From IMG/VR virus record IMGVR_UViG_3300032163_000022, positions 1 to 50,821 of that record: DNA of 50,821 nt. One strand, given 5' to 3'. Source of the stretch: a virus. The translations under genes and the position numbers were made by a program. Positions 3,904-47,862 of the stretch are shown here, piece by piece. Position 1 is the first letter of the stretch; every line of letters starts with the position of its first letter. The notes below the pieces were generated by a model, which did no database searches, was not told the origin of the DNA, and worked only from the letters and a program-made list of their open reading frames with translations.

Positions 3904-3917
3904 GTGAAGGCCGGCGA

Positions 3918-3964: not shown

Positions 3965-3969
3965 TGCGT

Positions 3970-4596
3970 TCATGCCCTGAAGTTCTTCATTGCGTCCTCC
4001 AGCTCCTCGTCCACGATGTGAGTATAAATCTGCGTGGTCCCGATATTCTCATGCCCCAGGGCCTTCTGGACCACCCTGAGGTTCTTGGTGGCCCGCAACA
4101 GGTCCGTGGCGAAGGTGTGCCGCAGGGTGTGGGGGTGGACCTCCTTGTAGGTTATCCCGGCGGCCCGGGCCACCTCACCCACCATCCAACGAACATACCG
4201 AGCTTTTAAGGGGCCGCCCTTGAGGTTAGTAAAAATAAAGTCCTCAGGTTTCCCGGGTTGCTTGTTGAGGTATCCCAGGAGGAGCTTGACATCGGCCTCG
4301 CAGAGCCAAAGCATCCGCTCCTTCTTCCCCTTCCCCAGCACCTTGAGTTTGCCGGTGGTGGGCTCCAAGTCCCGGCGCCGCAGGTGTAAGGCTTCGCTGC
4401 ACCTGAGCCCCGAGTTGAGCAGGAGGCGCACCAGGCAGAGGTTGCGGAGCCGGGTGAGAGAATTAAGGGGCCGGCCACGGAGACGGTTGCCGTTCCCCTC
4501 GTCGGTGATCTCCCCTTCCGGGGGAGGAAAGAACTGTTTCAGGAGCATCTCTTGCTCTGACGCTATGAGAACCTCTGGGATTTTGCGCCTGGTCAT
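3970..4596 (-). CDS. Tyrosine recombinase/integrase, catalytic domain only
   Basis: This 208-residue protein has a complete tyrosine recombinase catalytic set: Arg65 (NSGLRCSEAL), a lysine near 89-91, His156 and Arg159 (HPHTLRHTF), His182 (ALGHENIGTTQ) and nucleophile Tyr191 (IYTH). It would cut and rejoin DNA by a covalent 3'-phosphotyrosine intermediate, either for phage integration or for dimer resolution. Only about 50 residues precede the catalytic domain, so the usual SAM-like core-binding domain (around 80-100 residues) is missing. It is the last gene of the leftward cluster, and its ATG overlaps the preceding TAA by one base. It may be a short XerC/D-type form or a truncated integrase. 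Confidence 0.88.
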   Translation of the reverse strand: MTRRKIPEVLIASEQEMLLKQFFPPPEGEITDEGNGNRLRGRPLNSLTRLRNLCLVRLLLNSGLRCSEALHLRRRDLEPTTGKLKVLGKGKKERMLWLCEADVKLLLGYLNKQPGKPEDFIFTNLKGGPLKARYVRWMVGEVARAAGITYKEVHPHTLRHTFATDLLRATKNLRVVQKALGHENIGTTQIYTHIVDEELEDAMKNFRA

Positions 4597-4805
4597 TAGT
4601 TGCCTCCCGCCGTGGTCCGGGCCGGGGGATCAGGTTCAAGGTTTTCCAGCCGATTCAATACCCGGACAAGGTAGTCATCGGCCTGGTCAAGCTCGAACAC
4701 CGATATTTCCCGCCCCCCGGCCCTGTCCAGGCTATTCCTGGATGATAAAATATCAATCCGGGCCTCTTTCAAGTTCGCAATGATTCCTTTCATTTGGCCT
4801 TTCAT
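4596..4805 (-). CDS. Small hypothetical protein coupled to the recombinase
   Basis: This 69-residue, probably helical protein begins at ATG 4805, five bases behind a GGGGAGG site. A GTG at 4811 is in frame but sits on top of that site. Its start overlaps the stop of the preceding small gene as ATGA, and its own stop overlaps the recombinase start as TAATG. The tight coupling suggests it could be an accessory (excisionase-like) factor, but no helix-turn-helix or other motif is clear. Confidence 0.6.
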   Translation of the reverse strand: MKGQMKGIIANLKEARIDILSSRNSLDRAGGREISVFELDQADDYLVRVLNRLENLEPDPPARTTAGGN

Positions 4806-4927
4806 ATCCACCTCCCCAGGTCCGCCCCTTCGGTTCCTTGCGGAGCAAACCAGACCGCCAGGGCCGCCAAGATCACGGCCCCGGCCAGGATGAAATAGAT
4901 GTTGGTCAGAAGTCGGTGAATCATCAT
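4802..4927 (-). CDS. 41-residue single-pass membrane peptide
   Basis: This frame reads MMIHRLLTNIYFILAGAV and continues with a hydrophobic stretch to about residue 28, then a short polar tail (APQGTEGADLGRWI). It is one clear membrane segment. Start and stop overlap the neighbouring genes as ATGA on both sides, strong evidence for real translation. I do not recognise the peptide. In phages such peptides can be holin-like, antiholin-like or superinfection-exclusion proteins. Confidence 0.55.
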   Translation of the reverse strand: MMIHRLLTNIYFILAGAVILAALAVWFAPQGTEGADLGRWI

Positions 4928-4992
4928 CTGCCCCCCAAGATCGCCAGGGCCAGAATGATTATCCAGATTGCCGCAGCCCAAAAGAGTTTCAT
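4924..4992 (-). CDS. 22-residue hydrophobic micropeptide
   Basis: The frame MKLFWAAAIWIIILALAILG plus GR has almost nothing but a membrane helix. It starts at ATG 4992 with an AGGGGG site six bases upstream, and its stop overlaps the start of the 41-residue membrane peptide as ATGA. The regular overlap and the good ribosome site argue for translation, possibly to couple the downstream gene; the length alone makes the call uncertain. Confidence 0.4.
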   Translation of the reverse strand: MKLFWAAAIWIIILALAILGGR

Positions 4993-5052
4993 GCCCATCC
5001 CCCTATCTTCTCAGTAGGAGCAGGGACCGCTGCCCCTGCCCTGCCCAAAGAG

Positions 5053-5265
5053 TTAAGTCCCAGGGGTTTCCCTTAAAAATTCGCTGGCAAGTCTCCCGAT
5101 CTCTTGGGATAGTCGCCTCAGGTTGCCGCGCCGGTTCTGATTCAAGGTTTCGGGTTCACATTCAGACAGGTCTTTTTGAGCTTGGCCGAGGTTAAGAATT
5201 GCCGCGGCTAAGGTTTGCAAGATTACCTGTCGGTCATGGTCCACTGTGGCGTGTGGTTTGGGCAT
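5053..5265 (-). CDS. Small hypothetical protein
   Basis: This 70-residue protein is mostly helical (DRQVILQTLAAAILNLGQAQKDL, then LRRLSQEIGRLASEFLRE). Its ribosome-binding GAGGG lies seven bases upstream, inside the end of the preceding gene, so the two are coupled. I do not recognise a family. It belongs to the leftward cluster of small early-type genes. Confidence 0.6.
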   Translation of the reverse strand: MPKPHATVDHDRQVILQTLAAAILNLGQAQKDLSECEPETLNQNRRGNLRRLSQEIGRLASEFLRETPGT

Positions 5266-5268
5266 GGC

Positions 5269-5454
5269 CTAAGCCCTCATGCCGCCATCAGCCTGGGCCT
5301 GGTCCATCAAGGCGCAGACCAGCTTGTGCCCATCGTAGCCCTCGGCCTCCGCCGCCTTCATCTTGGCCTGGGGGAACATTCCGAAGCGCACCCCGGTTTT
5401 CTCGTTCTTGTCCATCCCTTGCCAAACCTCTGCCGCCTTCTCGGTGTAGTCCAT
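5269..5454 (-). CDS. Small hypothetical protein
   Basis: This 61-residue protein (MDYTEKAAEVWQGMDKNEKT followed by GVRFGMFPQAKMKAAEAEGY) has a strong AAGGAGG site six bases before ATG 5454. The sequence looks like a small folded domain with a conserved Phe/Pro-rich centre, but I cannot name a family. It is part of the leftward operon. Confidence 0.65.
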   Translation of the reverse strand: MDYTEKAAEVWQGMDKNEKTGVRFGMFPQAKMKAAEAEGYDGHKLVCALMDQAQADGGMRA

Positions 5455-5472
5455 CTCATGCCTCCTTAAAGG

Positions 5473-5781
5473 TTATCCAAACGCCGCCGGGACGCGGGCC
5501 CTGCCCAGGGCTCGGTCCTCGTCCCACAAAATCACGCTCACCGGCTCCCGGTCATTCCCCGGCCCCACCGTCAACTGGTGGGCCTGGAGGTGGGCCTCCA
5601 GGTCTGCCGCCAGCCGTTTCTCCGCCAGGTTGAGGTTGTCGTAAGCAGCAGAGACCGCGGGGTTGTCGTGGCCTAACACCTGGTCCACCCAGGCAACCTT
5701 TAGCCTGGTGTCAGCCAGGACTCGCCGCACCATCTCCATCGCCTTGGCCCGGTCCATCGCTTTCTGAACCCCGTCGTTCAT
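5473..5781 (-). CDS. Hypothetical protein
   Basis: This 102-residue protein starts at ATG 5781, overlapping the previous stop as ATGA with AAGGAG eight bases upstream. A longer frame starting at 5802 is less likely. Its N-terminal two-thirds is helical (MNDGVQKAMDRAKAMEMVRR and a NLAEKRLAADLEAHLQAHQL segment), followed by a short strand-rich end (EPVSVILWDEDRALG). Function unknown. Confidence 0.65.
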   Translation of the reverse strand: MNDGVQKAMDRAKAMEMVRRVLADTRLKVAWVDQVLGHDNPAVSAAYDNLNLAEKRLAADLEAHLQAHQLTVGPGNDREPVSVILWDEDRALGRARVPAAFG

Positions 5782-5972
5782 GTCGTCGGCTCCTTCAAGC
5801 ACTCAGCCACCCACCCCTTCACCCATGCGGTCGTGGCTTCCACGTTCTCGCCAAGGGTCGGGAATAGGCGTTTAAGGTAGTCTCCATCAAGGGCAGGGAC
5901 ACAGGGCACGCCTCGCTGGAACGCCACCCTGCCCAGGTCAAAGGCTTCTTGGGTGTGGGTCTTGTCGCTCAT
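5778..5972 (-). CDS. Small hypothetical protein
   Basis: This 64-residue protein starts at ATG 5972 behind an AGGAGG site. The stretch EAFDLGRVAFQRGVPCVPAL followed by a LFPTLGE and AWVKGWVAECL segment looks like a compact conserved phage domain that I have seen as an unnamed protein, but no function is known to me. It is coupled to the next gene by an ATGA overlap. Confidence 0.7.
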   Translation of the reverse strand: MSDKTHTQEAFDLGRVAFQRGVPCVPALDGDYLKRLFPTLGENVEATTAWVKGWVAECLKEPTT

Positions 5973-6020
5973 GTCGTCCTCCTGGGGGAAGGCGCCGCCG
6001 CCCTCCCCAGCCCCGCAGGG

Positions 6021-6197
6021 TTACTTGTAAATGTTCAACCCCATCTTGATGTCCGCCCGGCCCGGGACGCTCACGTTCCCCTCCGTGGTGGCCACGATGC
6101 TTGACTTTCCCGACTTGGACCGCCCGAAGTCCTCTTTCAGGTTCACCCGGATCGTCAAGATGTCGCCCTCTACCTTCATATCCACGTTCTTCGCCAT
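6021..6197 (-). CDS. Conserved small protein (58 residues)
   Basis: The frame starts MAKNVDMKVEGDILTIRVNL and ends GRADIKMGLNIYK, with KEDFGRSKSGKSSIVATTEG between. It resembles a widespread short beta-strand-rich protein of phages and bacteria of unknown function, recognised from memory by its central DFG-SKSGK-ATTEGN pattern. GGAGGG lies seven bases before ATG 6197. It sits in the leftward cluster between two short unknown genes. Confidence 0.75.
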   Translation of the reverse strand: MAKNVDMKVEGDILTIRVNLKEDFGRSKSGKSSIVATTEGNVSVPGRADIKMGLNIYK

Positions 6198-6275
6198 GTT
6201 CTTGCCCTCCAGCCTTCAGGTTTAAGATTTAACCGCTCACTCCCGGACCCGGTCCCCCGGGCCAAGGGTTAGGGG

Positions 6276-6497
6276 TTAAGCCCTCCTGATGTCGGTTACT
6301 AAAATATCCCGGTAAACCTCCCGGGTTTCTCCCAGGAACTTCACCCTCCAAATCTCAAGCCGCGAAGTCTCGCTAACTTGTCCGGCGATCCCGATGCGGC
6401 CTTTTAGAACGGCCTCGCCTTCGGGTTGCTCTCGGGTGATTGGGTCTTGATAAATTCTGATGATGCTTCCGCTCTGCATATTCTCAGGTTGTGGCAT
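6276..6497 (-). CDS. Small hypothetical protein
   Basis: This 73-residue, strand-rich protein starts at ATG 6497 with GGAGGGG four bases upstream. The longer frame reaching 6626 has no good site and overlaps the neighbouring gene. The central part (GEAVLKGRIGIAGQVSETSR, then LEIWRVKFLGETREVYRDIL) looks like a small beta-barrel. No family recognised. Confidence 0.6.
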   Translation of the reverse strand: MPQPENMQSGSIIRIYQDPITREQPEGEAVLKGRIGIAGQVSETSRLEIWRVKFLGETREVYRDILVTDIRRA

Positions 6498-6510
6498 AAT
6501 TCCCCTCCTG

Positions 6511-6666
6511 CTAAGGTCTTTCGTCCCATAAGGTGATTTGCGGGGTGCGCCGGGGTGCGTACACCTTAGCCCAGGCCCGATAATTGGCGATCTCGCCCTG
6601 GATGCGCTCCAGCCGAAGCTGCTCATCCCGCCAGGTGGCCCAAAGCCGTTTGATGATCTTCCACAT
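6511..6666 (-). CDS. Small hypothetical protein
   Basis: This 51-residue protein reads MWKIIKRLWATWRDEQLRLE at the start and is basic and tryptophan-rich, probably an amphipathic helix that could lie on a membrane. An AAGGA site is nine bases upstream. Its start lies six bases beyond the stop of the first gene of the leftward cluster. Function unknown. Confidence 0.5.
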   Translation of the reverse strand: MWKIIKRLWATWRDEQLRLERIQGEIANYRAWAKVYAPRRTPQITLWDERP

Positions 6667-6671
6667 GGTCT

Positions 6672-6902
6672 TTAATCCTTAAGGAATTCAGTTAACGCGG
6701 TGCGGGTGTCGGCAAGCCAGCACTCAGCGTCGTCAAGGTTCCTCATCTTCCCGCCGTGAAATTCTCCGGCATTAAAAAGAGCCTCTGCCGTTGTATGAAG
6801 GGTTCGCAGGTTGCGGAGGCTTTTGTTTAAGCCATCCCTCACCTTTTGGGCGGCACGGTTCAGCCTCTCTTTATTCACCTTTTGCTTTTCTTCCCTGGTC
6901 AT
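6672..6902 (-). CDS. Small hypothetical protein, first gene of the leftward operon
   Basis: This 76-residue helical protein (MTREEKQKVNKERLNRAAQK onward) is the promoter-proximal gene of the leftward cluster; a TTGACA/TACCTT promoter lies 80-110 bases upstream. Its charged N-terminus and a DDAECWLADTRTALTEFL C-terminus give no family match. Being first in the operon, it could be an early host-takeover or regulatory protein, but that is position only. Confidence 0.6.
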   Translation of the reverse strand: MTREEKQKVNKERLNRAAQKVRDGLNKSLRNLRTLHTTAEALFNAGEFHGGKMRNLDDAECWLADTRTALTEFLKD

Positions 6903-6981
6903 GGTCCTCTATCCTCCCGTTTATCCTGCCTTTTATGCCTTCCTTCTTCCCTTCCCGCCGACGACCTCAACCGTCAATACC

Positions 6982-9937: not shown

Positions 9938-10106
9938 CTTTACCCACGCGGAGATTTATGCCATGGGCAAGACCCTGGGGTTTGTGCCCAAGGACCTCTT
10001 CGTGCTGCTGGCGAAGAACCGGATGATGCACCCGAAGCATAAAATCCAGCGACACGCCCGGAAGTACCATAGCTATTTCTGGGTGATGCAGAAGAGACCA
10101 CTTTAA
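9729..10106 (+). CDS. DNA methyltransferase-like protein (catalytic half)
   Basis: This frame carries the catalytic DPPF motif of amino-methyltransferases (FRSVMFDPPF), then a LREIHRVLVPGGWLIFKCQD strand-turn typical of the Rossmann-like fold, and a C-terminus NRMMHPKHKIQRHARKYHSY. Such enzymes methylate adenine N6 or cytosine N4 in DNA; in phages they protect against restriction. The SAM-binding glycine motif is not seen. No ribosome site precedes GTG 9729 or ATG 9744. In-frame sequence upstream of 9729 (GLPIKSG) also fits the fold, so the true protein probably begins at 9614 and shifts frame. Confidence 0.6.
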   Translation: MFRSVMFDPPFMARTGPGATLKARFGELVGTIRDLWNFYFRALREIHRVLVPGGWLIFKCQDGVLSGVNNFTHAEIYAMGKTLGFVPKDLFVLLAKNRMMHPKHKIQRHARKYHSYFWVMQKRPL

Positions 10107-10117
10107 AGGAGAAACCT

Positions 10118-10327
10118 ATGATTGACAAAGAGATTGAGAAACGGTTTACCTACCATCCACCCAAGGAAGGCCAGCCGAAGAAGTATGAAAAACTTCGTGA
10201 GTCGGGCAAAGAGCTTGCCTACCTGATAACCAATCTCTGTCCTGACTCCCGGGAGAAGTCCCTGGCCATGACCAAGTTGGAAGAGGCGGTGATGTGGGCT
10301 AACGCCGCCATAGCGAGGAATGAATGA
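10118..10327 (+). CDS. Acb2/Tad1-like anti-defence protein (cyclic-nucleotide sponge)
   Basis: This 69-residue, all-helical protein ends in CPDSREKSLAMTKLEEAVMW followed by ANAAIARNE, the signature I recognise as the Acb2/Tad1 hairpin family. Known members form oligomers that bind and sequester signal molecules of bacterial immunity: Acb2 binds cyclic di- and trinucleotides of CBASS, and Tad1 binds cyclic ADP-ribose isomers of Thoeris. The N-terminus FTYHPPKEGQPKKYEKLRES is typical of the short phage version. AAGGAG lies eight bases before the ATG, and the stop overlaps the next gene as ATGA. Which ligand it binds cannot be told from sequence. Confidence 0.72.
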   Translation: MIDKEIEKRFTYHPPKEGQPKKYEKLRESGKELAYLITNLCPDSREKSLAMTKLEEAVMWANAAIARNE

Positions 10328-10626
10328 TGCCTGACAACTGGAAACATCGTTCTGAGAACATGAGGTGCAAGACCTGTATGTTTTTTGTGCCCAAAATACC
10401 CTTCCAGCCAAGACCGATGGAACCGGAGAAGGGGCCGGGTAATATTCCCCCGGAACCCCCGGAACTGAACCTGGGTCCTGGGAAGATATACCTGAGACAC
10501 CCTGGATACGACCTGGGCCGGTGCCGGCGCCATGCCCCCACCCTGTCGGGCTGGCCGGCAGTCTTCGTCAACGACTGGTGCGGGGACCATAAAATCGACG
10601 AGGAGAAACTCCATGGGAGCGGATGA
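10324..10626 (+). CDS. Cysteine-rich hypothetical protein (CxxC...C...C)
   Basis: This 100-residue protein has CKTC near residue 15, then LGRCRRHAPTLSGWPAVFVN and DWCGDHK, which together make a four-cysteine/histidine metal or iron-sulfur site. A proline-rich linker separates the two halves. It is coupled to the Acb2/Tad1-like gene by an ATGA overlap. I have seen similar unnamed proteins in phage genomes, but I know no function. Confidence 0.65.
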   Translation: MMPDNWKHRSENMRCKTCMFFVPKIPFQPRPMEPEKGPGNIPPEPPELNLGPGKIYLRHPGYDLGRCRRHAPTLSGWPAVFVNDWCGDHKIDEEKLHGSG

Positions 10627-35355: not shown

Positions 35356-38300
35356 ATGCCTTTCCTGGATGAAGAAAAAGGTCTAACGAGTCTAAGATCG
35401 GCTACTCCGTCAGTAGAGGCTCCCAAACTGCCGTCCGGTTGGTGGGATATCCCTGCCGAACCCGCGTCTGCCGAACCCGCGCCTACCGAGTCCGCTGACC
35501 GCCCCAAATTCATGTCGGAAAGCGATTTTGACTATCAGGTAGGGCGTCAGGAGCACCAAGCCCTGATGAAAGAATCCGGGGCGGTGGACGTAGAACGGTC
35601 TATGCCGGGGGAAATCGGTGCCTCTGTAGTACGGGGAGGGATAGGACTCGCCAAACTGCCGGTGCAGTTGGCCAAAATCATCGGGGCCGATGTCCTGGGG
35701 AGCGAGACGGTCAAGAAGGCCACGGTGCCTATCATCGAGAGTCTGGAAGAGACGGCCGCCTCCCCGACCTGGAAGCCCTCCAAAGAGGCCGGTGGCGCAC
35801 CCATTGACTTAGACCGCATAATCCAGGCCCCCGGGGAAGTAGCCGGTCAGATTGCTTCTCAGGTGTCCAACCCGCGGTTTTGGGCGGCGCAGTTGCCGGA
35901 AGGGGCCATGTCCATGGTGCCCTACTTCTTCGGCAACTGGATGGCCCGGATGGGCGCCACGGCTTTGAAATACGGTAAGGCCCTGGAAGTGGCCAAGGTA
36001 GCAGGGGACGAGGCCAAGATCGCCGAGATCGGCAGCAAGCTGGCCCGCATCGGGTCCATAGGCGGGTATGGCATGGCCATGGCCCAGGAAGCAGCCCAGG
36101 GAGAGGAAAAGGTTCGGGAGTATGAAGAGAAATACCCGGACAAAACAATACCCTGGGCCACCCGGGTTATTTCTATCTTGGGGACCGGGGTGGTGGCTGG
36201 CAGCCTGGAAGCTGTCTCCTTGGAGCGGATTTTTTCCGGCAAGGCAGGAATGACCCTGGTTCGCAAGATTCTGGACAGCGTGGCCACGGAGGGGTTGACG
36301 GAAGGGGCGCAATCCATCGTGGAGAACGCCTTTGCCAAATATGGGTTTGATCCCGACCAGAAGCTCTTGGAGGGTGTGGTTGAGTCTGCTCTGGTGGGGG
36401 CAGCCTTGGGGGGCCTTGGGGGTGCGGTGGAGCATCACCGGGTAAGGGTCCACGAAAAGGCGGTAAAGGCCCGGGAGGAATGGGCCCGCCAGCAACAAGG
36501 ACACATAGACCTTCAGGCGGCTCAGGAGGGGGCTCTTCGGGGCGAGGTCTATGCCGGGATGCCGGGGCCGGAAGAAGTTCCCCCGGAAGTTAGACCAAGC
36601 CCGATTGGTCCTGCCCCTGAAGGAACGCCGGTGTTATATGGTGAAACCGGCAAACCTATCCGACCGACCGAAGAGGAAGTGCGGCTTCAAGAGATTTTGG
36701 CGAAACCCGGTTGGGAGCGCACCGCGGAAGAGAAATTATGGGTTGACCGCCACCAGAGAGAGCTTGACAACTTGGGTCAAACCATCACCGGGGAGACTTC
36801 TCAGCCCACCCCCTCTAGGTTGATCCTCCCGCCGGCCTTTGGCGGGCCTCGTCGTGCGACCCCGACACCTATGGGGGTTTCCGGAGCAGAAACGGTTGCG
36901 GTGGCCACCGCACCAGAAGCTCCCAGCTTGAATGAACGGGTCAGCCAATTGATTACCGCAGTGGAAGAGACAGGGGATCCGAACGCCGCCCAAGAATTGA
37001 ACCAGCTTCTCATCGCCAACCAAAAGGGCATTGGGGACCTCTTCCGGGTGCCGGAGAGAGAGATTCCCGGCCTGGAACCCATTGCCAAGCGGCTTGAAAC
37101 TCTTATCCGCCAGGTAGAGGAAACCGGCGACTCCCAAGCCGCCCGGGACTTGCACGGTCTCCTGGCCGCCAACCGGGAAGTCTTGAGCGGAGTTACCCGC
37201 CGGGAGATTGCCGGGAGAAGCGGATTACCCCAGGCCCCTATGGGAATCACCGGGGCGGAAGTGGCAGAGGCGGCTACCAAGAAACCTATACCGGCCCCGG
37301 AAGCGGCGGCAACCCCACCCCCCGGTGTTCCCCCTTCACCGGAGATTCCTCCCGCCGCTTCGGGACCGACCACCGCGGACACGATCTTCCGGCCTGGGGG
37401 CAAGCTGGTTCTCGATGACGGAACCATCGTTACCATATCGGGGCCGAAACCTCCCCCGGGCGGCCCCCCTTCGGCTCCCCCGCCCAAGGGCCCCACGGCC
37501 ATAGGCTCAGGCACCAAAGTCACCCTCGCGGACGGGTCTGTTGTTACCGTCAAAGAGGAACAAGCTCCTTATGGCGGCCAGGCTTTTGAGGTGGTGGACG
37601 CTGACGGCAACGTGCACCGCATCGACATTTCTCGGGTCCGGGGTTACCTCGACGAGGGCGGTCAGGAGGCTCAACTACCAGAAACCCTCCGACCGAAACC
37701 TGCGGCTCCACCAACCGTTTCCGCCCCGAAGCCTACCAACCTGCCTCCGGGAATTGCGCCCAGGCCCGCCAAGATCGACACGGTGGCACTGGCGAAGATG
37801 TTCTACACTTCCGACCTGCGCGGCAACATCAGTCTTGGCAATTTGATGGAGCAGGTTCAGAAGCGCCACAACATTCCTCCTGAATGGCTTCAAATGCCAT
37901 CTTACCGCAAGCAGGTCGAGGAAGCCCTGGAACTGGCCTTAGTCTATGCCAACCGGAGCACCGTGGCCGGGGATACCCAAGGAGACGTGGCCGGGACCCT
38001 GCGTAAACTGATTGACCTTTACAATCGGCAGCCGGCCCTCACCTCCCGGACATCCACCACCATCAGAAACCAGGCTTACTCCACCCCGGCGCCCCTGGCC
38101 TACTTGATGGATAAGGTTACAGGGATTACCAAGGATTCTTGGGTCTATGAGCCCACCGCGGGCAACGGCATGCTCCTGATCGGGGCGAATCCGAAACAGA
38201 CCTTGGCGAATGAGATCGACCCGCTCCGGGCTGAACATCTGCGGTCCCAGGGGTTCGACGTGCTTTCCCAAGACGCTCAGAGCTTGGTAGGTAAGAAGGG

Positions 38301-41300
38301 CGGCCCGCAAGAGAACTCAGTGGACGTGGTGATCGCCAACCCGCCTTTCGGCAGCCTGGACACCCCGGTGGATTTTGACGGCTACAAGGTTTCCAAGCTG
38401 GAACACCTGATCACCCTTGATGCCCTCAAGGCCATGGACGACGACGGGCGGGCCGCCTTCATTGTCGGCGGCCATTCTTTCGCCAATCCCCTGGGCGGCA
38501 TCATGGGTAAGCTCACCAACGCTGACCGGGTGTTTTTCAACTATCTCTACTCCCACTATAACGTCACCCACCATATCAACATCGACGGCAAGGTGTACGA
38601 GCGCATGGGCACCAAGTTCCCCATTCGCCTTATCACCATCGAAGGCCGCAAGGTTCAGCCCGACAAAGCGGCGGCGCCTTACAAAATTGAACAGATAGAG
38701 GTTGCCAAAACCTTTGAGGATGTTTATAAGTTATTAAAAGGAGACATAGATGCCCGCGCAGAAGGTGTTGTGGCTCCCGGACTTTCTCAAGGACAGCCGG
38801 CCGGCCCGGGTCGGCCTGGGGGTATTTCTTCATCCCCAGGTGGCGAAGAGAGGGCCGGAGGCGTGGGAGTACCTGGAGGCTTGGAAGGAGAAGGTCCGAG
38901 ACCTGGTGAAGAAACACGAGAAGGAGGACCCCCAGGGGGTCTTGTGGACCTTGCAACTCCTGGGGCCGGGATCGCAGGTGGCGGACCAGTACTTCCGGGG
39001 GGACGAGAAGCAGGAAGAACTGGTGGACGCCATCCGGTCTCACCCGGAGACCGGGGCGCAGGAGTATCTCCTGGCGTATCTCCGCGACCCAAGCCCGGCG
39101 AACAAGCAGGACCTGCTGGACCATTACTCCCAGGACCCGAAGGAAGACCATCTCAGCCCGCAACAAGAACTGCAGGAACAGAAGGACCTCAACCTGGACG
39201 AGTTCCTCCTAAGTCTATAGGCTCCGGCACCCAGGTCACTCTTCCTGACGGGACCGTCGTCACCATCAAGGAAGAGCAGACCCCCTACACCCGTTCCCTC
39301 AGAGAAGAACAAGCCCCCTACGGCGAACAGACCGTCGAAGTTGTGGATGCCGACGGCAACGTGCGCCGAATCCCCATCTCCCAAATCCAGGGTGTCGTTG
39401 ACGAGAGCGGCAAAGAAGTCAAGCTCTCCGATGAGGACCGTCAGGGCCTCAAGGTTTTCCAGAAGAACCAATGGGTTGAAACCAACGACGGCGCCACCGG
39501 CCAGGTCGCCAAGGTGCGCGGTTGGGGCGACAAGATGGTGCTCACCGTCCAGGGGCCGGAAGGGGCGATCACCGTCAAACCCGCGGACGTGAAAAACATC
39601 CTGGAAGGACCACCTGCAGCCAAGGAAGAAAAGACCCCGACCCCTGAGTCCAAAGCCGAAGGAACCAGCCTCCAGGTCCCCTACAAGCCCACCTCCAAGG
39701 GACAGCCCATGAATACCGTGGCCCCGCGGTACATGGCTGAAGCCGTTGGCAATTACCTGGAAAAATTACAAGAAGAGATTGGCGACCTGGACGAGTTTGT
39801 GCGGGGCCGTCTGGGCTACAAGACCAAGAACGAAATGTTTGGGGTCCTGGGAGCCGAACAGGTCGAGGGCGTGGCCCTGGCCATCGACGCCATAGAACGG
39901 GGCACCGGCGGCTTCGTGATCGGCCACCAGACGGGCGTGGGCAAGGGCCGCATGGTGGCGGCCATTATGCGTTACGCCAAGAACCAGGGGTTAGTGCCCA
40001 TCTTTCTGACGGAGAACGACGGTCTGCATTCGGCCATGTATCGGGATATGCAGGACATCAACGCTGACCTCAACCCTCTCATCGTGGCCAGCAACAAAGA
40101 TCGGGCCCGTATCGTGGACAATGACGGCAACGTCATCCGTGAATTGGACAAGCAGGCCATCACAGAGGCGGTCAGAAATCGCCGCTTGCCGGCTGGCTAT
40201 GATGCCATCTTTACTACCTACTATCAAATAAATAGCCGGACCATAACCGGCAAGATGGAACTGTTAAGGGCTTTGGCGCCTCAGTCCATCTTGATCCTGG
40301 ACGAGTCCCACAAGGGGGCCGGGGACAAGAGCCAGACCGGGGCTTTTCTCCGGGCCCACATGACGGACCAGGCGCGGGGGGTGATCTACTCTTCGGCCAC
40401 CTACGCCAAACGGCCCGACACCATGGCCCTGTACCATCGCACCGAGTTGGGCAACCTCAACGTGGACATCGACACCGTCATTGCTAACTTGGTGATGGGC
40501 GGGGTCCCCCTCCAGGAGTGGATTGCCCACCAATGGGCCCAAAGCGGTCAGATGATCCGCAACGAACTCTCCTTCGCCGGCATCGACATCCCGGTGGAGG
40601 TGGACACGGAGAATATCACCCGGGACCGGCAACGGTCGGACGATCTGACCACAGGTTTGCGGGAGATTCTCAGGTTTTCCAAGGCTTTTAGCGAATGGGT
40701 AGCAGACCTGAACGATGATTTCCAAGAGCAAGGCGAACAAGTGGAGCCGGGTTTCCGGGGTGGGATCTCGAACACCAATTTTGCCTCGGTGATGCACAAC
40801 AAGATTTCCCAGCTACTCTTCTGCCTACGGACAGACTCTACCATCAAGGAGGCCTTGACAGCTCTCAGGCAAGGTAAGAAGGTGGCCATTGGCTGTTACA
40901 ACACCATGGAAGCCTTCGTGGATGACATGCTGGAGGCAGGCACCATCAAGGTGGGCGATGAGCTTAATATGAATTTCGCCCAGGTGGTCCGGAAGGCTGC
41001 GGATAGCGTCTTGGTTTATAGAATCGACCATGGCCAGGGGGCTCTGCCAGAAAAGGTGATCGTAAAACCTGAAGATATGCCCCCCCACCTCCAAACCTTG
41101 TGGCGCAACCTAGTGGCCCTCCTTGAAGGCACTACGACGGATGTGCCGGCCATGCCCATTGACTACATCGCCAAGGCCCTCATCAAGGAAGGGTTCAAGG
41201 TGGGCGAGATTACCGGCCGGCGGCACGTTCTGGATTGGGAGCAGGAAGGAAACATCCTCAGGAGGCGAAGTGATAAGGAGAAATCCGACAAGAACACCCC

Positions 41301-44300
41301 TGTTAACGCCTTCAATGCCGGCGATTATGACGCCCTCATCATCAACAGTGCGGGGAGCAGCGGGATCTCCCTTCATTCCGGCGAGAAGTTCAAGGACCAG
41401 CGCCCCCGGCACATGATCCTGACCCAGATGAGCAATGAGATCAACGAAGCGGTGCAGCTCCTAGGGCGCATCCATCGTACCGGGCAGGTCAACCTCCCCA
41501 GCTACATGATCAAAATTAGCTCCCTCCCAGGGGAAAAGCGACCCCTGGCCATCCTCCAAAAGAAACTGGCTGAATTGTTCGCCAACATCTCCGCCAAGGG
41601 AGAGTCCGCCTACTCCCTGGATGTGAACGACATCATCAACCAGTACGGCGACCAGGTGATCGCCGAGATGTTCGCCGACGACCCCAGCCTGAATGACCGC
41701 TTGAGTGGGGTACTGGATAACGTCATCGACCACGAATTCATCGAGGCCGACAAAGACGGACGAATTCACCAAATCCTTACCCAATATGCGGAGACTGGCA
41801 AGCTCACCAAGCGGGTCACCGGCTGGACCTCCTTGCAGCCGGTGACGGTGCAGGAGGAAGTGTGGGCGGCCATCGACGCCAAGTATGAAGACCTGGTGGA
41901 GCATCTGAAGCAGATCGGCGAATACAACCTGGAAAGTGAACACCTGGATCTTCAGACCAAGACCCTGAGTAAATCCGTGTTGGTGGCCGGCAGCGCCCAG
42001 GGGAAGAGTGAACTTTCCAGTCCCACCTATTTCGAGACGGTTGAGGCCAAGGTCCAGAAAAAACCCATGACCAAGGCGGAGATCGAGAAGCGGATGCAGG
42101 CCAACCTCAAGGGCAGGCAGCCGCAAGACCTGGCCGATGAGATAAAAACGAAGATTCAACAAGATTTTGAACCTTGGATCACAGAAAAAATTGCCCTAAT
42201 GAGAGGGGCGGGAACCTCGCAGGACACGATAAACCGATTCGAGCAGGGGGCCAGGGGGGCCCTGACCTACACCTTGCGCCACCTGGATGAGTACCAAATC
42301 GGCACGGCGGTCAAATACGAGTTGCAGGCCATGGCCGGCGTAATCTACGACCTCAAGTATAAACCGGTCACAGGAGGCAACCCGGCTACCCCCGGCAACA
42401 TCAAAATCAGCATGGCGGTGGACTCCACCATGCGGATTTTCAAGACCTCCCTGGCTGGAATAAGCACGGGTACCACCAGATATAAAATGTCGGCTTTGGA
42501 TGGATGGTTGGATGCTACCCCACATTCACAAAGTTGGGATGAGAAACTGCCGGACCAGACCTTTGAGACGCGCTACCTGGTGACCGGGAACCTCCTGGGG
42601 AATCCCATCGACGCCGGACAGATGACTTTCTTCACCCGGGACGACGGCAAATTGACCACCGGCTTCCTGATGCCCCTCAACTTCGACCTGTCCAGGCACC
42701 CGGAATTGCAGAGGGTGATGCTGAGCCAATCGCAGGCGGAGACCTTATTGAAACGTGAGGGGTGGATGAGCGACTCGGGGTATGAGGTCATCGTCCAGAA
42801 AGTCCCCCCGTCGATGGGCCCGGGTTATCGCCTGGAAGTCCCAACCTCGAAGGCCAAAGGGGGCAAATATTTTCTTAACAAAGAGCTCCTGGCCCTCGTC
42901 AGGAACGGAGAATTTTATCGGTCCCGGGGCCGGATGGTTGGCGACATTCAAAGCCGAGAGGATGCGCTTGCCGCCATTGGCCTCCTCTACAAACTCGGTA
43001 CGATTTTCTCCACTGACCGGACTACCGCCGACAATATCTTCGGCAACAGCCTTGGCGGGGCCCCCGGGGTTGCAGAAAAAACCGTGCCCTATACCCAACT
43101 GACCCCCAAACATCACGCCGAAGAGGTGAAACTGGCCTATGGCTCCGAGAAAGCAGCAAAGCAGGTCGTCCAGGAAACCGCCCGGCAGATCGAAAAAGTC
43201 CACCGGACCCTTCAAGGAATACCCAGCCCAGGAGTGCCAGGGGTTTTGGCCCGGTATCGTTCCCGCATCGCTCAAGAATATTCTAAACAGGGATGGATTG
43301 ATCTGTCTGGACGCCAACTCGAACCCGGTAGAGAGGCCCAGCAAATAGCCGAGCTTTTCCAGGTTTTTCGCAACCCCAAGATGGAGATTCTACACGCCAT
43401 CTATACAAAGGACGGGGTGATCGTGGCCCACAATGCCATCACTTCCGGCCAAATTAATTCCGTGCGACCGAAGAATATTGCCCAACACCTCTTCCGGCTA
43501 CAGGAAACTGCGAAGCGCCTGGGGGCTGACAAGGTTCATATCCTGCATAACCACCCAAGCGGTAGCCCCGACATGAGCCTGGCCGACCGTTCCATGGCCA
43601 GGGTACTACGAGAGGGGTTTACGTCCCTGGGTGAAGCCAAGGGCGAGACAACCGGGGTAGTAGGGAAAACTGGTGAGGGCCAGGAAATCGAGGGCCTGGG
43701 CAACCTCATGGGCGAGTTCATAGTCATTGACCATGGAAAATTCAGCTATCTCTATGAGTATCCAGGCCAGGGGCACCACATTAATTACGGTGATTATAAG
43801 GTGTCGCCGGAGCTTCGACAGGCCCATACCAAGGGGATGATAATAAAAAATGCGAGCGACCTGGCAGCTTTTATTAGCACCATAAAATATGACCAAAACA
43901 AGGTGGTCCTGGTCCATTTGACTTCGGCCAACGAGGTCAACGGGTGGAGCGTCCACAATAAGACCATTCTGGATAAGCCGGTAAAGCAAGTGAAACAGAG
44001 CCTCAGGCAAGAAATGAAGGCTTTTAATGCCAACCGCACGGTAATCGTTACCGAGGACGGGGCCGTGGTCAACAAGATGCTCTCCCAGGAGATTGAAACC
44101 GGGGCGCAGGATAACCTCAACCTGACTTCGATGGTTTTGGACATTATCAATGCCCGCGGGGAAAACCTCCGAAAGTCGGCTGACTTCTTGTGGCAGTTGT
44201 CAGGGCGCCAGGCCGGGAAAGAGGCCTGGGCGATGTGGGAACCTCAGGCGTCTTATAGCCCCGCCGAGGCCGAAAATGTCTTGACCGACTACGACCGGAA

Positions 44301-47300
44301 GATGTTGGCCCCGGGGAAACGCACCATCTGGGAGAAAATCAAGGCGGTTAAGACCGGGGAAGGCACCAAGGGGTTCTTGGAGAAATTCTATACCGAGGTG
44401 GTGGACCGTTACGCCCCCATGGAACGGGCCGAAGAGAAGCTCAAGAAGGCGGGGATCACTGTGGGCCCCGGCCAGAGCGTCACCAACGCCCTGTCTTACA
44501 TGAGGGGTCAAGAGGGGCGGGTCCGGCAAGCTCTAACCGGAGATCACGTCTATCAGAACGTCATGGAGGCGGATGAAAACGGCCGGATGATCTTCACCGG
44601 CGAGATCAAGGAGGTAGGAGCCAGCCTGGATAAACGCCTGGAACCCATCAAGAAGCTGGCAGCCAAGCGGGGGGAAGAGGTCCCCAAGGTGATGCACGAC
44701 CTCTTCAACCGCCTGATGGTGGCCCAACGGGACCTGGAGTTGGCTGGAGAGACCGGGTCTCGGGCCCCCGGGGAGATCAAGGGTACCCGGCCGGAAGATA
44801 GCCGGGCGGCCCTGGACGCCCTCAAATCTATCTATGGGGAAGACTTCAAGGTTTTGGAAACTACGGCCCGGAGCGTCCGGGAATGGGGAGACCAGGCCAT
44901 CTTACAACCCCTCCTGCAGGTGGGGTTTATCGACCAGGCCCGTTACGATGAGGTCAAAGCCAAAAATGAATTCTATATCCCCTTTAAGCGCCTGATGGAG
45001 GACATCGACGACTACATCAACGCCAACGCCGCGGCCCTGGGAATCAAGGGCCGAGTGATCCAGAAAATCGAAGGTTCGGAGAGGGCCATCCTGGATCCGT
45101 TGCAGATGTGGATCGAACTGGCTTACAAGGCCAACTACGCCTTCGCCCGGAATTATGTGGTGCAGAACATCGCCGTGCTGGGAGAGTATGGGGATCCCGA
45201 CATCAAGGAAGTGGCGGCCAAATACCTGCCCGTTGATTTTGCTCAGAAACAGGAGATTGACGCGGTGCTGCGGCCCCAACTGGTCAAGCTCGCCAAAGCC
45301 CTGGGTATCGACGTAAAGGTCATGGGCACGATGCGCAGCCGGCGCCTGGGACAGTTCAAGAAATGGCTCAGCCAAGAAGTTCAGGCTGGCGGGATAACTT
45401 CGGAGGTGGCGAAAGAGATCCAGGTGAGGTTTGCCACCTTCGAGGCAACCCTGGCGCATGAGGTGGGCCATGGGATCGACGACACTTACGGCCTGGTGAA
45501 GCTGCTCATCGAACAGGGCACCCCGGAGATGAAGCGGGAGCTACGCCGCATTGCCGATCAGCGGGCCGATAATCCCTCCAACTCCTATAAGCGGTATATC
45601 CGCAAGAAAGAGGAACAGGTGGCGGAGTTCGTCAGCCGCTACATCATCGACAAAAGATCGGTGGAGCGCCTGGCTCCCAACGCCCTGGCGAAATTTGAGG
45701 GTTATCTGCGGCAAAACGACAAGCTGAGGCCCCTCCTGGGATTCAAACTTTCCCACCAGGCCGGGATGCTGGAAGCCATGAATCGGGTTTGGGCCCGTTC
45801 TCCTTTGCCGCCAGAACCCGGGACGATCCCCTACTACCGGGACGGAAAGCAACGGTGGCTCAAGGTCCCCCCGGACATTTTCCAGGCGACCCAGAGTATG
45901 ATGCCGTCGGAGATCGGGATATTGTTGAAGGTGGCCAAGGCCCCGGCGGACCTGTTGCGGGCCGGTGCGGTGATGACCCCGGAGTTCGGCCTGGCCCGAA
46001 ACCCCTTCCGGGATGTGGTCCAGGCTTACCTTTTTAGCCGCTTCGGATTCAATCCCCTCAAGTGGTTCAGGGATGCTTATGGCCTGGTAGCCAAGGATAA
46101 AGACACCTTGAGGTATCACCGGGAATGGGAGGCCGGCGGCGGCCCCCTGGCGACGTTGGCGCAGTCTATGGTGGACCCGGAAAAGATCACCAGCGAAGCC
46201 ATCATGGGGAAGAAAAAGGGCATGGTTTACCATGTCCATCCACTTGCGGCCCTGCGTCATGCCTCTGCCTACCTGGAGAATATGACCCGATTTGCCATCT
46301 ACAAGCAGGCCCGAGAGAAGGGGTTGAGCCATGCTGACGCTATCCACGAAGCCCGGCGCACCACCTTGGATTTTGCTCGAAGTGGAGCTCACCCGGTAGC
46401 TCGTTACCTCAATATGATCATCCCCTTCTGGAATGCTTCCATTCAGGGGGCAGACAAACTGATCACTGAGCTTGCCGGTCCCAACAAATGGGCGGTGATG
46501 CGCCGGATGTCCGTGCTCACCACGGCCTCCATTCTTCTGTGGACGCTGGCCCACCAGGACGACCGCTACAAGGAACTGGAGGATTGGGAGAAGAACTATT
46601 TTTGGCACATCCCTCTTGGCGGGAAGAAAGGGCCGATGATCCGCCTGCCCAAACCTTTCGAGGCCGGGATCCTCTTCGGGTCTATCCCGGAGCGGATGCT
46701 GGAGTGGGCAGTTGATAAAAATGTCAACGGGGTAAAAGCGGCCCTGGGGGCAGCCTGGCAGGCTCTAACCCCCGAGATCATCCCTGCCATCGTGCGTCCC
46801 ATCGTGGAAGGTAGCGCCAATTATAGCTGGTTTACGGGGCGACCCATCGAGGACGCGAGCCTATTGAACCTCCCCGCGGAGCTGCGGGCCAAACCCTGGA
46901 CTTCGGAACTGGCCAAGGCCGTCAGCCGTTACGCTGGCCCTGTGGTCTCTCCCCTGGTGGAATTGAGCCCGGTGAAGGTAGAACACTTCGTTCGGTCCAT
47001 GACGGGCGGCCTGGGCGCCAACTACTTCTTTCCGGGCATTGACGTGCTCTTGCGGAAGGCTGGGGTTCTGGAAGATATTCCTCAACCCACCAAAGACACC
47101 ATCGAAAGGATCTGGGGAGTGAGGGCTTTCTTCGCCAAACCACCCACCGGCTACCGGGCCAAGACGGTGAACGACTTCTTTGAGGCTTACCAAAAAGCTA
47201 TTCAGGCGGACCAAGGTTGGAAGCTCCTGTGGAACTCCGGGAGCATGGACAAACTTGATAAGTTCCTGGCCGACAACCCCGAGGCCATGTTCGCCCGGGT

Positions 47301-47862
47301 CGCTCGTAAACAGGTAGACGCGTTGGGGAAAATCAAGAAGGAAAGAGATTCCATCTACCTCTCCAAGACCCTGACTTCGGAACAAAAAAGGGTCAAGCTG
47401 GACGCCCTGGATGAAAAGATCGTGCAACTGGCCAAGGTGGGACAAGCCTTGATGGACCCGGAGGTGGCCCAGGCCCTCCAGATGCCCTCCCGGTTTAAGA
47501 CAGAGATGGGGACTCGGAAGTCCCTGGACCTGGACGGGTATTATAAGTTCGTGGCGGAGTCTGTGGGCGATGCCTACGATTCCATCCAGAAAGACCTCCC
47601 CCGCCTCCTGCGGATGGACGAGGCTCAGCGCCAACGGTATCTGATCAAGACCATCCGCCAAGCCCGGGAGGATTACCAGCCTATTCTTAAAAAGCCGGAA
47701 GATGTGATGAAGCCCTATCGGTTCTCGAACCTGATGGACAAGCCGACGCGGGCGGAACGGGCCGCCTGGCAACAGGTGATGGGCTTCCGCAAAAGCAACC
47801 CTGGATTTATGACCGGCTATCGAGTAAAGCCGGAAGAAGAAAGGAAGGAGGTGGGCCTGTGA
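35356..47862 (+). CDS. Giant polyvalent protein: DNA methyltransferase, strawberry-notch helicase, JAB and HExxH peptidases, LPD38-like
   Basis: One open frame of 4168 codons follows GGGGAGA. Residues about 250-370 hold hydrophobic helices. About 880-1130 is a DNA methyltransferase with EPTAGNGML (932) and IANPPFGS (995). About 1430-2150 is a superfamily 2 helicase of strawberry-notch type with HQTGVGKGR (1525), LDESHKG (1649) and RIHRTGQ (2038). About 2655-2830 is a RadC/JAB-like metalloprotease with HNHPSGSPD (2731). About 3368 has HEVGH and a later EEQVAEF, a zincin. About 3550-3800 resembles LPD38 (FARSGAHPVARYLNMIIPFW). The mix is that of the polyvalent proteins of phages. The methyltransferase-helicase pair resembles P1 DarB, which is carried in the virion and blocks type I restriction. 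Confidence 0.8.
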   Translation: MPFLDEEKGLTSLRSATPSVEAPKLPSGWWDIPAEPASAEPAPTESADRPKFMSESDFDYQVGRQEHQALMKESGAVDVERSMPGEIGASVVRGGIGLAKLPVQLAKIIGADVLGSETVKKATVPIIESLEETAASPTWKPSKEAGGAPIDLDRIIQAPGEVAGQIASQVSNPRFWAAQLPEGAMSMVPYFFGNWMARMGATALKYGKALEVAKVAGDEAKIAEIGSKLARIGSIGGYGMAMAQEAAQGEEKVREYEEKYPDKTIPWATRVISILGTGVVAGSLEAVSLERIFSGKAGMTLVRKILDSVATEGLTEGAQSIVENAFAKYGFDPDQKLLEGVVESALVGAALGGLGGAVEHHRVRVHEKAVKAREEWARQQQGHIDLQAAQEGALRGEVYAGMPGPEEVPPEVRPSPIGPAPEGTPVLYGETGKPIRPTEEEVRLQEILAKPGWERTAEEKLWVDRHQRELDNLGQTITGETSQPTPSRLILPPAFGGPRRATPTPMGVSGAETVAVATAPEAPSLNERVSQLITAVEETGDPNAAQELNQLLIANQKGIGDLFRVPEREIPGLEPIAKRLETLIRQVEETGDSQAARDLHGLLAANREVLSGVTRREIAGRSGLPQAPMGITGAEVAEAATKKPIPAPEAAATPPPGVPPSPEIPPAASGPTTADTIFRPGGKLVLDDGTIVTISGPKPPPGGPPSAPPPKGPTAIGSGTKVTLADGSVVTVKEEQAPYGGQAFEVVDADGNVHRIDISRVRGYLDEGGQEAQLPETLRPKPAAPPTVSAPKPTNLPPGIAPRPAKIDTVALAKMFYTSDLRGNISLGNLMEQVQKRHNIPPEWLQMPSYRKQVEEALELALVYANRSTVAGDTQGDVAGTLRKLIDLYNRQPALTSRTSTTIRNQAYSTPAPLAYLMDKVTGITKDSWVYEPTAGNGMLLIGANPKQTLANEIDPLRAEHLRSQGFDVLSQDAQSLVGKKGGPQENSVDVVIANPPFGSLDTPVDFDGYKVSKLEHLITLDALKAMDDDGRAAFIVGGHSFANPLGGIMGKLTNADRVFFNYLYSHYNVTHHINIDGKVYERMGTKFPIRLITIEGRKVQPDKAAAPYKIEQIEVAKTFEDVYKLLKGDIDARAEGVVAPGLSQGQPAGPGRPGGISSSPGGEERAGGVGVPGGLEGEGPRPGEETREGGPPGGLVDLATPGAGIAGGGPVLPGGREAGRTGGRHPVSPGDRGAGVSPGVSPRPKPGEQAGPAGPLLPGPEGRPSQPATRTAGTEGPQPGRVPPKSIGSGTQVTLPDGTVVTIKEEQTPYTRSLREEQAPYGEQTVEVVDADGNVRRIPISQIQGVVDESGKEVKLSDEDRQGLKVFQKNQWVETNDGATGQVAKVRGWGDKMVLTVQGPEGAITVKPADVKNILEGPPAAKEEKTPTPESKAEGTSLQVPYKPTSKGQPMNTVAPRYMAEAVGNYLEKLQEEIGDLDEFVRGRLGYKTKNEMFGVLGAEQVEGVALAIDAIERGTGGFVIGHQTGVGKGRMVAAIMRYAKNQGLVPIFLTENDGLHSAMYRDMQDINADLNPLIVASNKDRARIVDNDGNVIRELDKQAITEAVRNRRLPAGYDAIFTTYYQINSRTITGKMELLRALAPQSILILDESHKGAGDKSQTGAFLRAHMTDQARGVIYSSATYAKRPDTMALYHRTELGNLNVDIDTVIANLVMGGVPLQEWIAHQWAQSGQMIRNELSFAGIDIPVEVDTENITRDRQRSDDLTTGLREILRFSKAFSEWVADLNDDFQEQGEQVEPGFRGGISNTNFASVMHNKISQLLFCLRTDSTIKEALTALRQGKKVAIGCYNTMEAFVDDMLEAGTIKVGDELNMNFAQVVRKAADSVLVYRIDHGQGALPEKVIVKPEDMPPHLQTLWRNLVALLEGTTTDVPAMPIDYIAKALIKEGFKVGEITGRRHVLDWEQEGNILRRRSDKEKSDKNTPVNAFNAGDYDALIINSAGSSGISLHSGEKFKDQRPRHMILTQMSNEINEAVQLLGRIHRTGQVNLPSYMIKISSLPGEKRPLAILQKKLAELFANISAKGESAYSLDVNDIINQYGDQVIAEMFADDPSLNDRLSGVLDNVIDHEFIEADKDGRIHQILTQYAETGKLTKRVTGWTSLQPVTVQEEVWAAIDAKYEDLVEHLKQIGEYNLESEHLDLQTKTLSKSVLVAGSAQGKSELSSPTYFETVEAKVQKKPMTKAEIEKRMQANLKGRQPQDLADEIKTKIQQDFEPWITEKIALMRGAGTSQDTINRFEQGARGALTYTLRHLDEYQIGTAVKYELQAMAGVIYDLKYKPVTGGNPATPGNIKISMAVDSTMRIFKTSLAGISTGTTRYKMSALDGWLDATPHSQSWDEKLPDQTFETRYLVTGNLLGNPIDAGQMTFFTRDDGKLTTGFLMPLNFDLSRHPELQRVMLSQSQAETLLKREGWMSDSGYEVIVQKVPPSMGPGYRLEVPTSKAKGGKYFLNKELLALVRNGEFYRSRGRMVGDIQSREDALAAIGLLYKLGTIFSTDRTTADNIFGNSLGGAPGVAEKTVPYTQLTPKHHAEEVKLAYGSEKAAKQVVQETARQIEKVHRTLQGIPSPGVPGVLARYRSRIAQEYSKQGWIDLSGRQLEPGREAQQIAELFQVFRNPKMEILHAIYTKDGVIVAHNAITSGQINSVRPKNIAQHLFRLQETAKRLGADKVHILHNHPSGSPDMSLADRSMARVLREGFTSLGEAKGETTGVVGKTGEGQEIEGLGNLMGEFIVIDHGKFSYLYEYPGQGHHINYGDYKVSPELRQAHTKGMIIKNASDLAAFISTIKYDQNKVVLVHLTSANEVNGWSVHNKTILDKPVKQVKQSLRQEMKAFNANRTVIVTEDGAVVNKMLSQEIETGAQDNLNLTSMVLDIINARGENLRKSADFLWQLSGRQAGKEAWAMWEPQASYSPAEAENVLTDYDRKMLAPGKRTIWEKIKAVKTGEGTKGFLEKFYTEVVDRYAPMERAEEKLKKAGITVGPGQSVTNALSYMRGQEGRVRQALTGDHVYQNVMEADENGRMIFTGEIKEVGASLDKRLEPIKKLAAKRGEEVPKVMHDLFNRLMVAQRDLELAGETGSRAPGEIKGTRPEDSRAALDALKSIYGEDFKVLETTARSVREWGDQAILQPLLQVGFIDQARYDEVKAKNEFYIPFKRLMEDIDDYINANAAALGIKGRVIQKIEGSERAILDPLQMWIELAYKANYAFARNYVVQNIAVLGEYGDPDIKEVAAKYLPVDFAQKQEIDAVLRPQLVKLAKALGIDVKVMGTMRSRRLGQFKKWLSQEVQAGGITSEVAKEIQVRFATFEATLAHEVGHGIDDTYGLVKLLIEQGTPEMKRELRRIADQRADNPSNSYKRYIRKKEEQVAEFVSRYIIDKRSVERLAPNALAKFEGYLRQNDKLRPLLGFKLSHQAGMLEAMNRVWARSPLPPEPGTIPYYRDGKQRWLKVPPDIFQATQSMMPSEIGILLKVAKAPADLLRAGAVMTPEFGLARNPFRDVVQAYLFSRFGFNPLKWFRDAYGLVAKDKDTLRYHREWEAGGGPLATLAQSMVDPEKITSEAIMGKKKGMVYHVHPLAALRHASAYLENMTRFAIYKQAREKGLSHADAIHEARRTTLDFARSGAHPVARYLNMIIPFWNASIQGADKLITELAGPNKWAVMRRMSVLTTASILLWTLAHQDDRYKELEDWEKNYFWHIPLGGKKGPMIRLPKPFEAGILFGSIPERMLEWAVDKNVNGVKAALGAAWQALTPEIIPAIVRPIVEGSANYSWFTGRPIEDASLLNLPAELRAKPWTSELAKAVSRYAGPVVSPLVELSPVKVEHFVRSMTGGLGANYFFPGIDVLLRKAGVLEDIPQPTKDTIERIWGVRAFFAKPPTGYRAKTVNDFFEAYQKAIQADQGWKLLWNSGSMDKLDKFLADNPEAMFARVARKQVDALGKIKKERDSIYLSKTLTSEQKRVKLDALDEKIVQLAKVGQALMDPEVAQALQMPSRFKTEMGTRKSLDLDGYYKFVAESVGDAYDSIQKDLPRLLRMDEAQRQRYLIKTIRQAREDYQPILKKPEDVMKPYRFSNLMDKPTRAERAAWQQVMGFRKSNPGFMTGYRVKPEEERKEVGL
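37501..37675 (+). repeat. Internal duplication, copy A (IGSGT-VTL module)
   Basis: This stretch of the giant gene encodes IGSGTKVTLADGSVVTVKEE and EVVDADGNVHRIDISRVRGY. A second copy at 39221-39425 is similar throughout, with about 70 percent base identity by eye. Such short strand-rich modules resemble SH3-like linkers. The pair flanks the methyltransferase and the nested gene. Confidence 0.75.
38750..39220 (+). CDS. Nested gene inside the giant gene, different frame
   Basis: This 156-residue frame (MPAQKVLWLPDFLKDSRPAR, VADQYFRGDEKQEELVDAIR, NKQDLLDHYSQDPKEDHLSP) is buried in the giant gene in another frame. It has AAAAGGAG seven bases before ATG 38750. In its first 30 codons the third base is G or C in about 25; in the giant frame over the same bases about 12 of 30. 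The giant frame here reads only Gly/Pro-rich low complexity. So this frame has the better coding signal. The protein is soluble, helical, acidic at the C-terminus and of no recognised family. Confidence 0.65.
   Translation: MPAQKVLWLPDFLKDSRPARVGLGVFLHPQVAKRGPEAWEYLEAWKEKVRDLVKKHEKEDPQGVLWTLQLLGPGSQVADQYFRGDEKQEELVDAIRSHPETGAQEYLLAYLRDPSPANKQDLLDHYSQDPKEDHLSPQQELQEQKDLNLDEFLLSL
39221..39425 (+). repeat. Internal duplication, copy B (IGSGT-VTL module)
   Basis: This copy encodes IGSGTQVTLPDGTVVTIKEE, a short partial repeat of EEQ-PY, and EVVDADGNVRRIPISQIQGV, matching copy A at 37501-37675. It starts directly after the stop of the nested gene. The pair suggests that the methyltransferase-nested-gene block was inserted or duplicated by recombination. 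Confidence 0.75.

Follow-up and report, generated by a model that had tools for sequence, protein, structure and literature searches.

A probable out-of-frame gene nested in the methylase-helicase linker of a giant DarB-like viral gene

Does one stretch of viral DNA between a methylase and a helicase encode two proteins on the same strand, or is the long frame that crosses it an accident? The question is raised by a 50,821-base virus record from IMG/VR, analyzed whole and referred to here as the window, in which a 4168-codon giant frame (35356-47862) contains a smaller frame in the +1 phase. The first-pass annotation had reported the latter as a 156-codon, ATG-initiated ORF at 38750-39220, out of frame in the 4168-codon gene, and these coordinates are exact. 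It offered two readings: two genes overlapping over 470 bases, or a giant frame produced by the fortuitous fusion of two formerly separate genes. Features of the locus are collected in Table 1.

Table 1. Coordinates of the nested ORF, its start signals and the surrounding parts of the giant gene
Feature	Position in window	Strand	Remarks
Giant polyvalent gene, 4168 aa: methylase, Strawberry-notch helicase, RadC-like JAB, LPD38	35356..47862	+	Pfam/PHROGs
Repeat domain SGTxVTLxDG...VDADGNV, first copy	37507..37690 (end approximate)	+	Before methylase
N6-adenine methylase-like domain	37900..38748	+	NPPF at 38338; ends just before nested start
Shine-Dalgarno AAAAGGAG	38736..38743	+	6 bases before nested ATG; read from sequence
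TAG in nested frame	38747..38749	+	Immediately 5' of ATG; read from sequence
Giant-frame Gly/Pro-rich linker over nested gene	38749..39225	+	Stays open; no measurable amino-acid constraint
Nested gene, 156-aa acidic protein	38750..39220	+	ATG start, TAG stop; conserved in L003/L006, L004/L005, L007, L008
Repeat domain SGTxVTLxDG...VDADGNV, second copy	39223..39435 (end approximate)	+	Directly after nested gene
Strawberry-notch-type helicase region	39841..41931	+	AAA_34, Helicase_C_4; Walker motif TGVGKGR at 39931

The giant gene lies downstream of the terminase, head-tail and major head genes. An adenine methylase with NPPF is fused in it to an SF2 helicase, and by its predicted domains the giant is the methylase-helicase dyad of the DarB-like polyvalent proteins, whose archetype is P1 DarB (Iyer et al. 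2017, PMC5512222). Shared with that type are the fusion of an adenine methylase to a SWI2/SNF2-type helicase, LPD38, and the location downstream of phage head genes; the helicase here is of the Strawberry-notch subtype. The Pfam N6_Mtase match to the methylase domain was weak and below cut-off, and the PHROGs match is a DNA methyltransferase. The nested gene starts at the methylase end and stops before the helicase part of the giant.

The predicted nested protein has a mass of 18.1 kDa, a pI of 4.9 and an ordinary amino-acid make-up, in agreement with the natural amino-acid use noted earlier. The strong ribosome site described at first pass is present, with a spacer of 6 bases rather than seven. 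Third-position G/C had been counted correctly at 25 of 30 nested codons against 12 of 30 giant codons, and across the entire overlap GC3 is 0.83 in the nested frame versus 0.32 in the giant frame. The giant frame is indeed Gly/Pro-rich across the overlap, Gly making up 28% and Pro 18% of its residues there, and is without Phe, Trp, Tyr, Met, and Asn. Length by itself would not make the nested ORF convincing, since the genome is GC rich, spurious ORFs of more than 100 aa are numerous in the window, and, with the giant's amino acids fixed, the nested frame would be open by chance with a probability of 0.03-0.17. It is conservation that makes the ORF more than chance.

Four window-type relatives were found, two represented by IMG/VR contigs (L003/L006 and L004/L005) and two by MAG contigs whose record titles name Thermodesulfobacteriota (L007) and Deltaproteobacteria (L008). 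Identity of the nested protein to that of the window is 83%, 74%, 76%, and 57%, respectively, against 77%, 69%, 70%, and 50% for the giant linker encoded by the same bases, the nested protein being the better conserved in each of the four. This is the reverse of the pattern, linker residues conserved and nested frame not, that the first-pass annotation had named as counting against a nested gene. The ATG, AAAGGAGACAT, and a C-terminal ending of SL followed by the stop are common to all five window-type sequences; nested lengths are 154-163 codons, and indels are whole codons. The TAG before the ATG reads TCG in two relatives; there the stop upstream of the ATG is instead a TGA, five codons away. 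A programmed frameshift-fused product was considered and rejected, as a stop stands just before the nested start.

Database searches with the nested protein, proposed earlier as a check, gave no family and no relative beyond these four loci. There was no believable relative in Pfam, PHROGs, NCBIfam, PADLOC, or PDB, and none beyond the four, free-standing or otherwise, in phages, plasmids, and approximately 300 bacterial genomes (two samples, apparently largely overlapping). Weak matches in G176 and G204 sit in unrelated ORFs, the G204 gene reading like a DNA polymerase III subunit. A PDB match to 7ue2 (RPB_PLP3_R6, E 1e-4), extending over 42 residues, was put down to helical composition. For the window-type nested protein, AlphaFold with five close sequences gave a model too poor to use (pLDDT 42.6).

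The way substitutions are distributed distinguishes the overlap from its surroundings. In the flanking methylase and helicase regions, they concentrate at giant codon position 3. Within the overlap they fall most often at giant position 1, which is nested position 3, followed in most pairs by giant position 2 (nested 1) and then 3 (nested 2). This codon-phase switch between overlap and flanks gave a chi2 p=5e-18 for the four closest sequences and, with seven pairs from three groups taken together, p=3e-68, pairs within a group not being fully independent. We also obtained rates in both frames, as had been suggested, by classifying each change in both; these carry no correction for multiple hits and derive from a small number of sequences. 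In the four closest sequences, nested dNN/dNS was 0.44 (bootstrap 0.29-0.66), indicating constraint, and giant dNN/dSN in the overlap was 1.06 (bootstrap 0.72-1.60), while the giant synonymous rate dropped from 0.30-0.36 to 0.11 in the overlap. Codon usage of the nested frame scored +0.18, like the phage's own genes (0.16 +/- 0.07), and that of the giant in the overlap scored -0.33, below the phantom +1 frame elsewhere (-0.15). When the whole giant gene was scanned, the nested ORF was the sole +1 or +2 stretch of more than 100 codons open in all five sequences, and the five scanning windows with the lowest position-3 share in the 12.5 kb start at 38767-39088, i.e., at the nested ORF. By this substitution pattern, the nested frame is demonstrably under purifying selection for its protein.

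The giant frame, for its part, remains open. We looked for giant-frame stops at homologous loci, a further check proposed at first pass, and found none in the 21 loci examined, against 1.8-9.2 expected per locus when the synonymous codons of the nested proteins were re-sampled; the probability of having no stop (P0) was <0.01 in 16 of the 21, which are related within groups and are not 21 independent tests. Methylase and helicase also lie in one frame where there is no nested gene, as in L011 (a more distant giant with a short Pro-rich linker), Acinetobacter phage MD-2021a, and plasmids of Nostoc, Agrobacterium, Sphingobium, and Methylobacterium. Since the giant is stop-free in 21 loci and fused even where the nested gene is absent, it does not appear to be a chance fusion. 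We interpret the giant linker as a spacer whose openness is selected and whose sequence is free.

A nested +1 ORF recurs at the same junction in Bacteroides phage BS-TP4 (PQ571277.1), whose host is B. salyersiae BG8. It lies at 10044-10388 and is absent from the annotation; the record lists only a 16-kb gene over it. All eleven IMG/VR relatives of BS-TP4 retain the ORF, at 104-124 codons, making 12 loci in this group. The start context AGACA(A/G)ATG and the C terminus (D/E)W(D/E) are both shared. The phase flip is seen in 10 of the 11 tabulated pairs, the exception being L039/L040 with just three overlap differences, and nested dNN/dNS is 0.34 (four pairs). An IMG/VR scan with the Bacteroides-type family matched the same nested sites only. 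From nine sequences, AlphaFold predicted a small, mainly helical protein with short strands (pLDDT 91.4, pTM 0.84), for which Foldseek found no match in PDB or BFVD at E <0.001. Between L039 and L040, the nested segment is mostly 0-1% different and the flanks mostly 9-19%, up to about 19-25%; between L012 and L039, the nested segment is about 40% different and the flanks mostly 8-20%. These divergences indicate that the nested segment recombines separately from its flanks in this group, with a local recombination tract as the apparent source of the L039/L040 pattern.

Further nested ORFs occupy the junction in other elements. The bacterial genome G303 has two giants (G303a and G303b) carrying another nested protein, preceded by the Shine-Dalgarno sequence GGAGGTCAAA. 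Between the two, the nested proteins are 72% identical and the linkers 63%, and changes at giant positions 1/2/3 number 33/23/27 in the overlap versus 37/35/78 in the methylase. The corresponding loci, L033 and L034, hold methylase-helicase genes of 4000-5000 codons that have diverged to about 80% identity, each with its nested gene. The nested protein of Thioflavicoccus plasmid pTHIMO01 is a relative of the G303 type. On that plasmid (Thioflavicoccus mobilis, L024), methylase and helicase share an unbroken frame of 1340 codons (about 2960-6980), which is missing from the PLSDB gene table and contains its own nested +1 ORF. The nested proteins of G143 and G239, 26% identical, probably share a third kind as judged by their sequences, and G325 has a candidate nested ORF of 88 codons that is not significant alone.

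Profile comparison of the window, Bacteroides, and G303 nested families detected no homology, and a 14-column C-terminal resemblance among nested families had no significance. By sequence comparison, then, the slot in phages and other mobile elements is occupied by at least four families of small acidic proteins, always in one relative frame; because nested families lack detectable homology, a common origin of the slot is no more than a possibility. A conceivable, qualitative reason for the recurring frame is that few stops arise when an acidic Leu/Glu-rich protein is read there. In P1 darB there is no protein-like +1 ORF before the helicase; a +1 stretch of 177 codons is Arg/Ser-rich and was judged spurious.

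Taken at the level of sequence, conservation of both frames, the direction of constraint, and recurrence are all evident, and a true same-strand overlap of two genes is very probably the correct account. Conservation, the phase flip, and recurrence uphold this, the first of the two original readings. A chance ORF, thrown up by GC bias and by Gly/Pro/Glu-rich repeats in the giant frame, would draw on the estimated probability of an open +1 frame (0.03-0.17) and the other long spurious ORFs. It is scarcely credible when the protein, ribosome site, and stop are conserved, the phase flips, and no other such stretch exists in the gene; the substitution pattern already contradicts it, and nested ORFs recur in independent groups, one with a confident fold model and others with free-standing homologues. 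The fortuitous fusion originally proposed would leave the linker untranslated in the giant, with methylase and helicase as independent products of the sequences that flank the nested gene. Its unconstrained linker amino acids (dNN/dSN about 1), their low complexity, and a broken locus, L053, that lost giant continuity in the linker would fit. Yet absence of stops from 21 of 21 loci, where the nested amino acids predict 2-9, and the persistence of the fusion in homologues without the nested gene make this reading very improbable.

An insertion of the homing type is also improbable, if slightly less so. The model would be ShiLan, where a phage methylase gene keeps its own frame open across an inserted, out-of-frame HNH endonuclease gene (PMC11855218); a mobile element here could be tolerated by the same logic, and in the Bacteroides group the history of the nested segment does differ from that of the flanks. 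However, there is no endonuclease or other family match in Pfam, PHROGs, NCBIfam, or PADLOC; the site is a domain boundary, not a conserved motif; and the Bacteroides-type AlphaFold model matches no known structure. Nor is there an empty site within any group that has the nested gene, which is present in 5 of 5 window-type and 12 of 12 Bacteroides-type loci and absent only in distant homologues.

If the overlap is real, which frame came first? A G303-type profile search recovered free-standing genes of 114-136 codons in genomes of G303's phylum, with unrelated neighbors and, in most cases, without an overlapping open frame. These include L054-L062, a small chromosomal protein family with a MTWRPERIMNFFM motif and without a Pfam or NCBIfam name. 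One free-standing relative (L056, 1442-1835) has an overlapping 131-codon open frame in the giant-linker phase, perhaps a relic of a former methylase-helicase gene. Two relics were noted: one of the G303 type in which the nested ORF persists and the methylase is gone, and L053 (genome G306), a broken giant whose methylase frame continues into the C-terminal half of the nested protein. Free-standing relatives together with codon usage favor entry of a small gene into the linker, with the giant overprinting it, and the nested frame is probably the older on this evidence. The opposite origin, with a real overlap but an older linker in which the small gene gained a start and ribosome site de novo, is unlikely, though possible for the window type, for which no free-standing relative turned up in the collections searched. 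It has in its favor the short Pro-rich linker without a nested ORF in the more distant giant L011 and the fact that overlapping genes usually arise by overprinting (PMC8227390). Against it stand nested codon usage that matches ordinary phage genes where the giant's in the overlap does not, the chromosomal homologues of the G303-type family, most without an overlapping frame, and the better conservation of the nested protein than of the linker.

Under the favored overlap of two genes, the giant mRNA would give two products: the 4168-aa methylase-helicase, read through with a flexible Gly/Pro linker encoded by the overlap, and, as a distinct product, the 156-aa acidic protein, presumably made by internal initiation at the Shine-Dalgarno site where the methylase domain ends. 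In the most likely history, the linker between methylase and helicase received a small gene while the giant frame stayed open through it, so that overprinting would have been by the giant and not by the small gene. What the small protein does can be proposed only tentatively. A role as partner or regulator of the DarB-like methylase-helicase, produced in excess of it, is suggested by the junction location in several groups; we consider this a serious possibility, a little short of even. Our next choice, also possible, is independent cargo, e.g., for anti-defense or host takeover; the unrelated neighbors of one family's free-standing relatives argue for it and weaken a methylase-specific role. 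A PADLOC search gave no match of substance for the nested proteins. More speculatively, the DarB-like methylase-helicase junction might be a general cargo slot for unrelated small out-of-frame genes in phages, plasmids, and other elements of distant hosts, with the giant frame kept open as a linker and the small proteins forming a hidden class of regulators or anti-defense factors tied to injected methylase-helicases.

The nearest precedent of the nested gene is the ShiLan insertion, likewise a small other-frame gene in a phage DNA-methylase gene, with the host frame open and the insert invisible to annotation. ShiLan's gene lies between conserved residues, is patchy, has no ribosome site, and encodes an HNH endonuclease. 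The genes described here lie instead at the methylase-helicase junction, are in every close relative found, encode small acidic proteins, and, in the window and G303 types, have a conserved Shine-Dalgarno site. Virus overprinting, as described in PMC8227390, is similar in that two proteins come from one sequence with one frame of low complexity and weakly constrained. It differs in that the low-complexity frame here is the long gene and in that the slot recurs with unlike nested proteins. Because the low-complexity frame is that of the long gene, overprinting probably ran the opposite way. Overlapping frames did not come up in a text search of Iyer et al. 2017 (PMC5512222), and searches confined to the open-access literature found no report of a nested gene in a methylase-helicase linker.

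Gene callers discard such ORFs, as the one in BS-TP4 illustrates: the genome of an isolated phage encodes a nameless nested protein that is conserved, is confidently modeled, and matches no known fold. With the loci described here, bacterial viruses gain a recurrent group of same-strand overlapping genes that can be aligned and whose free-standing homologues reveal the direction of overprinting; the loci also point to an unstudied partner or cargo of DarB-like anti-restriction enzymes.
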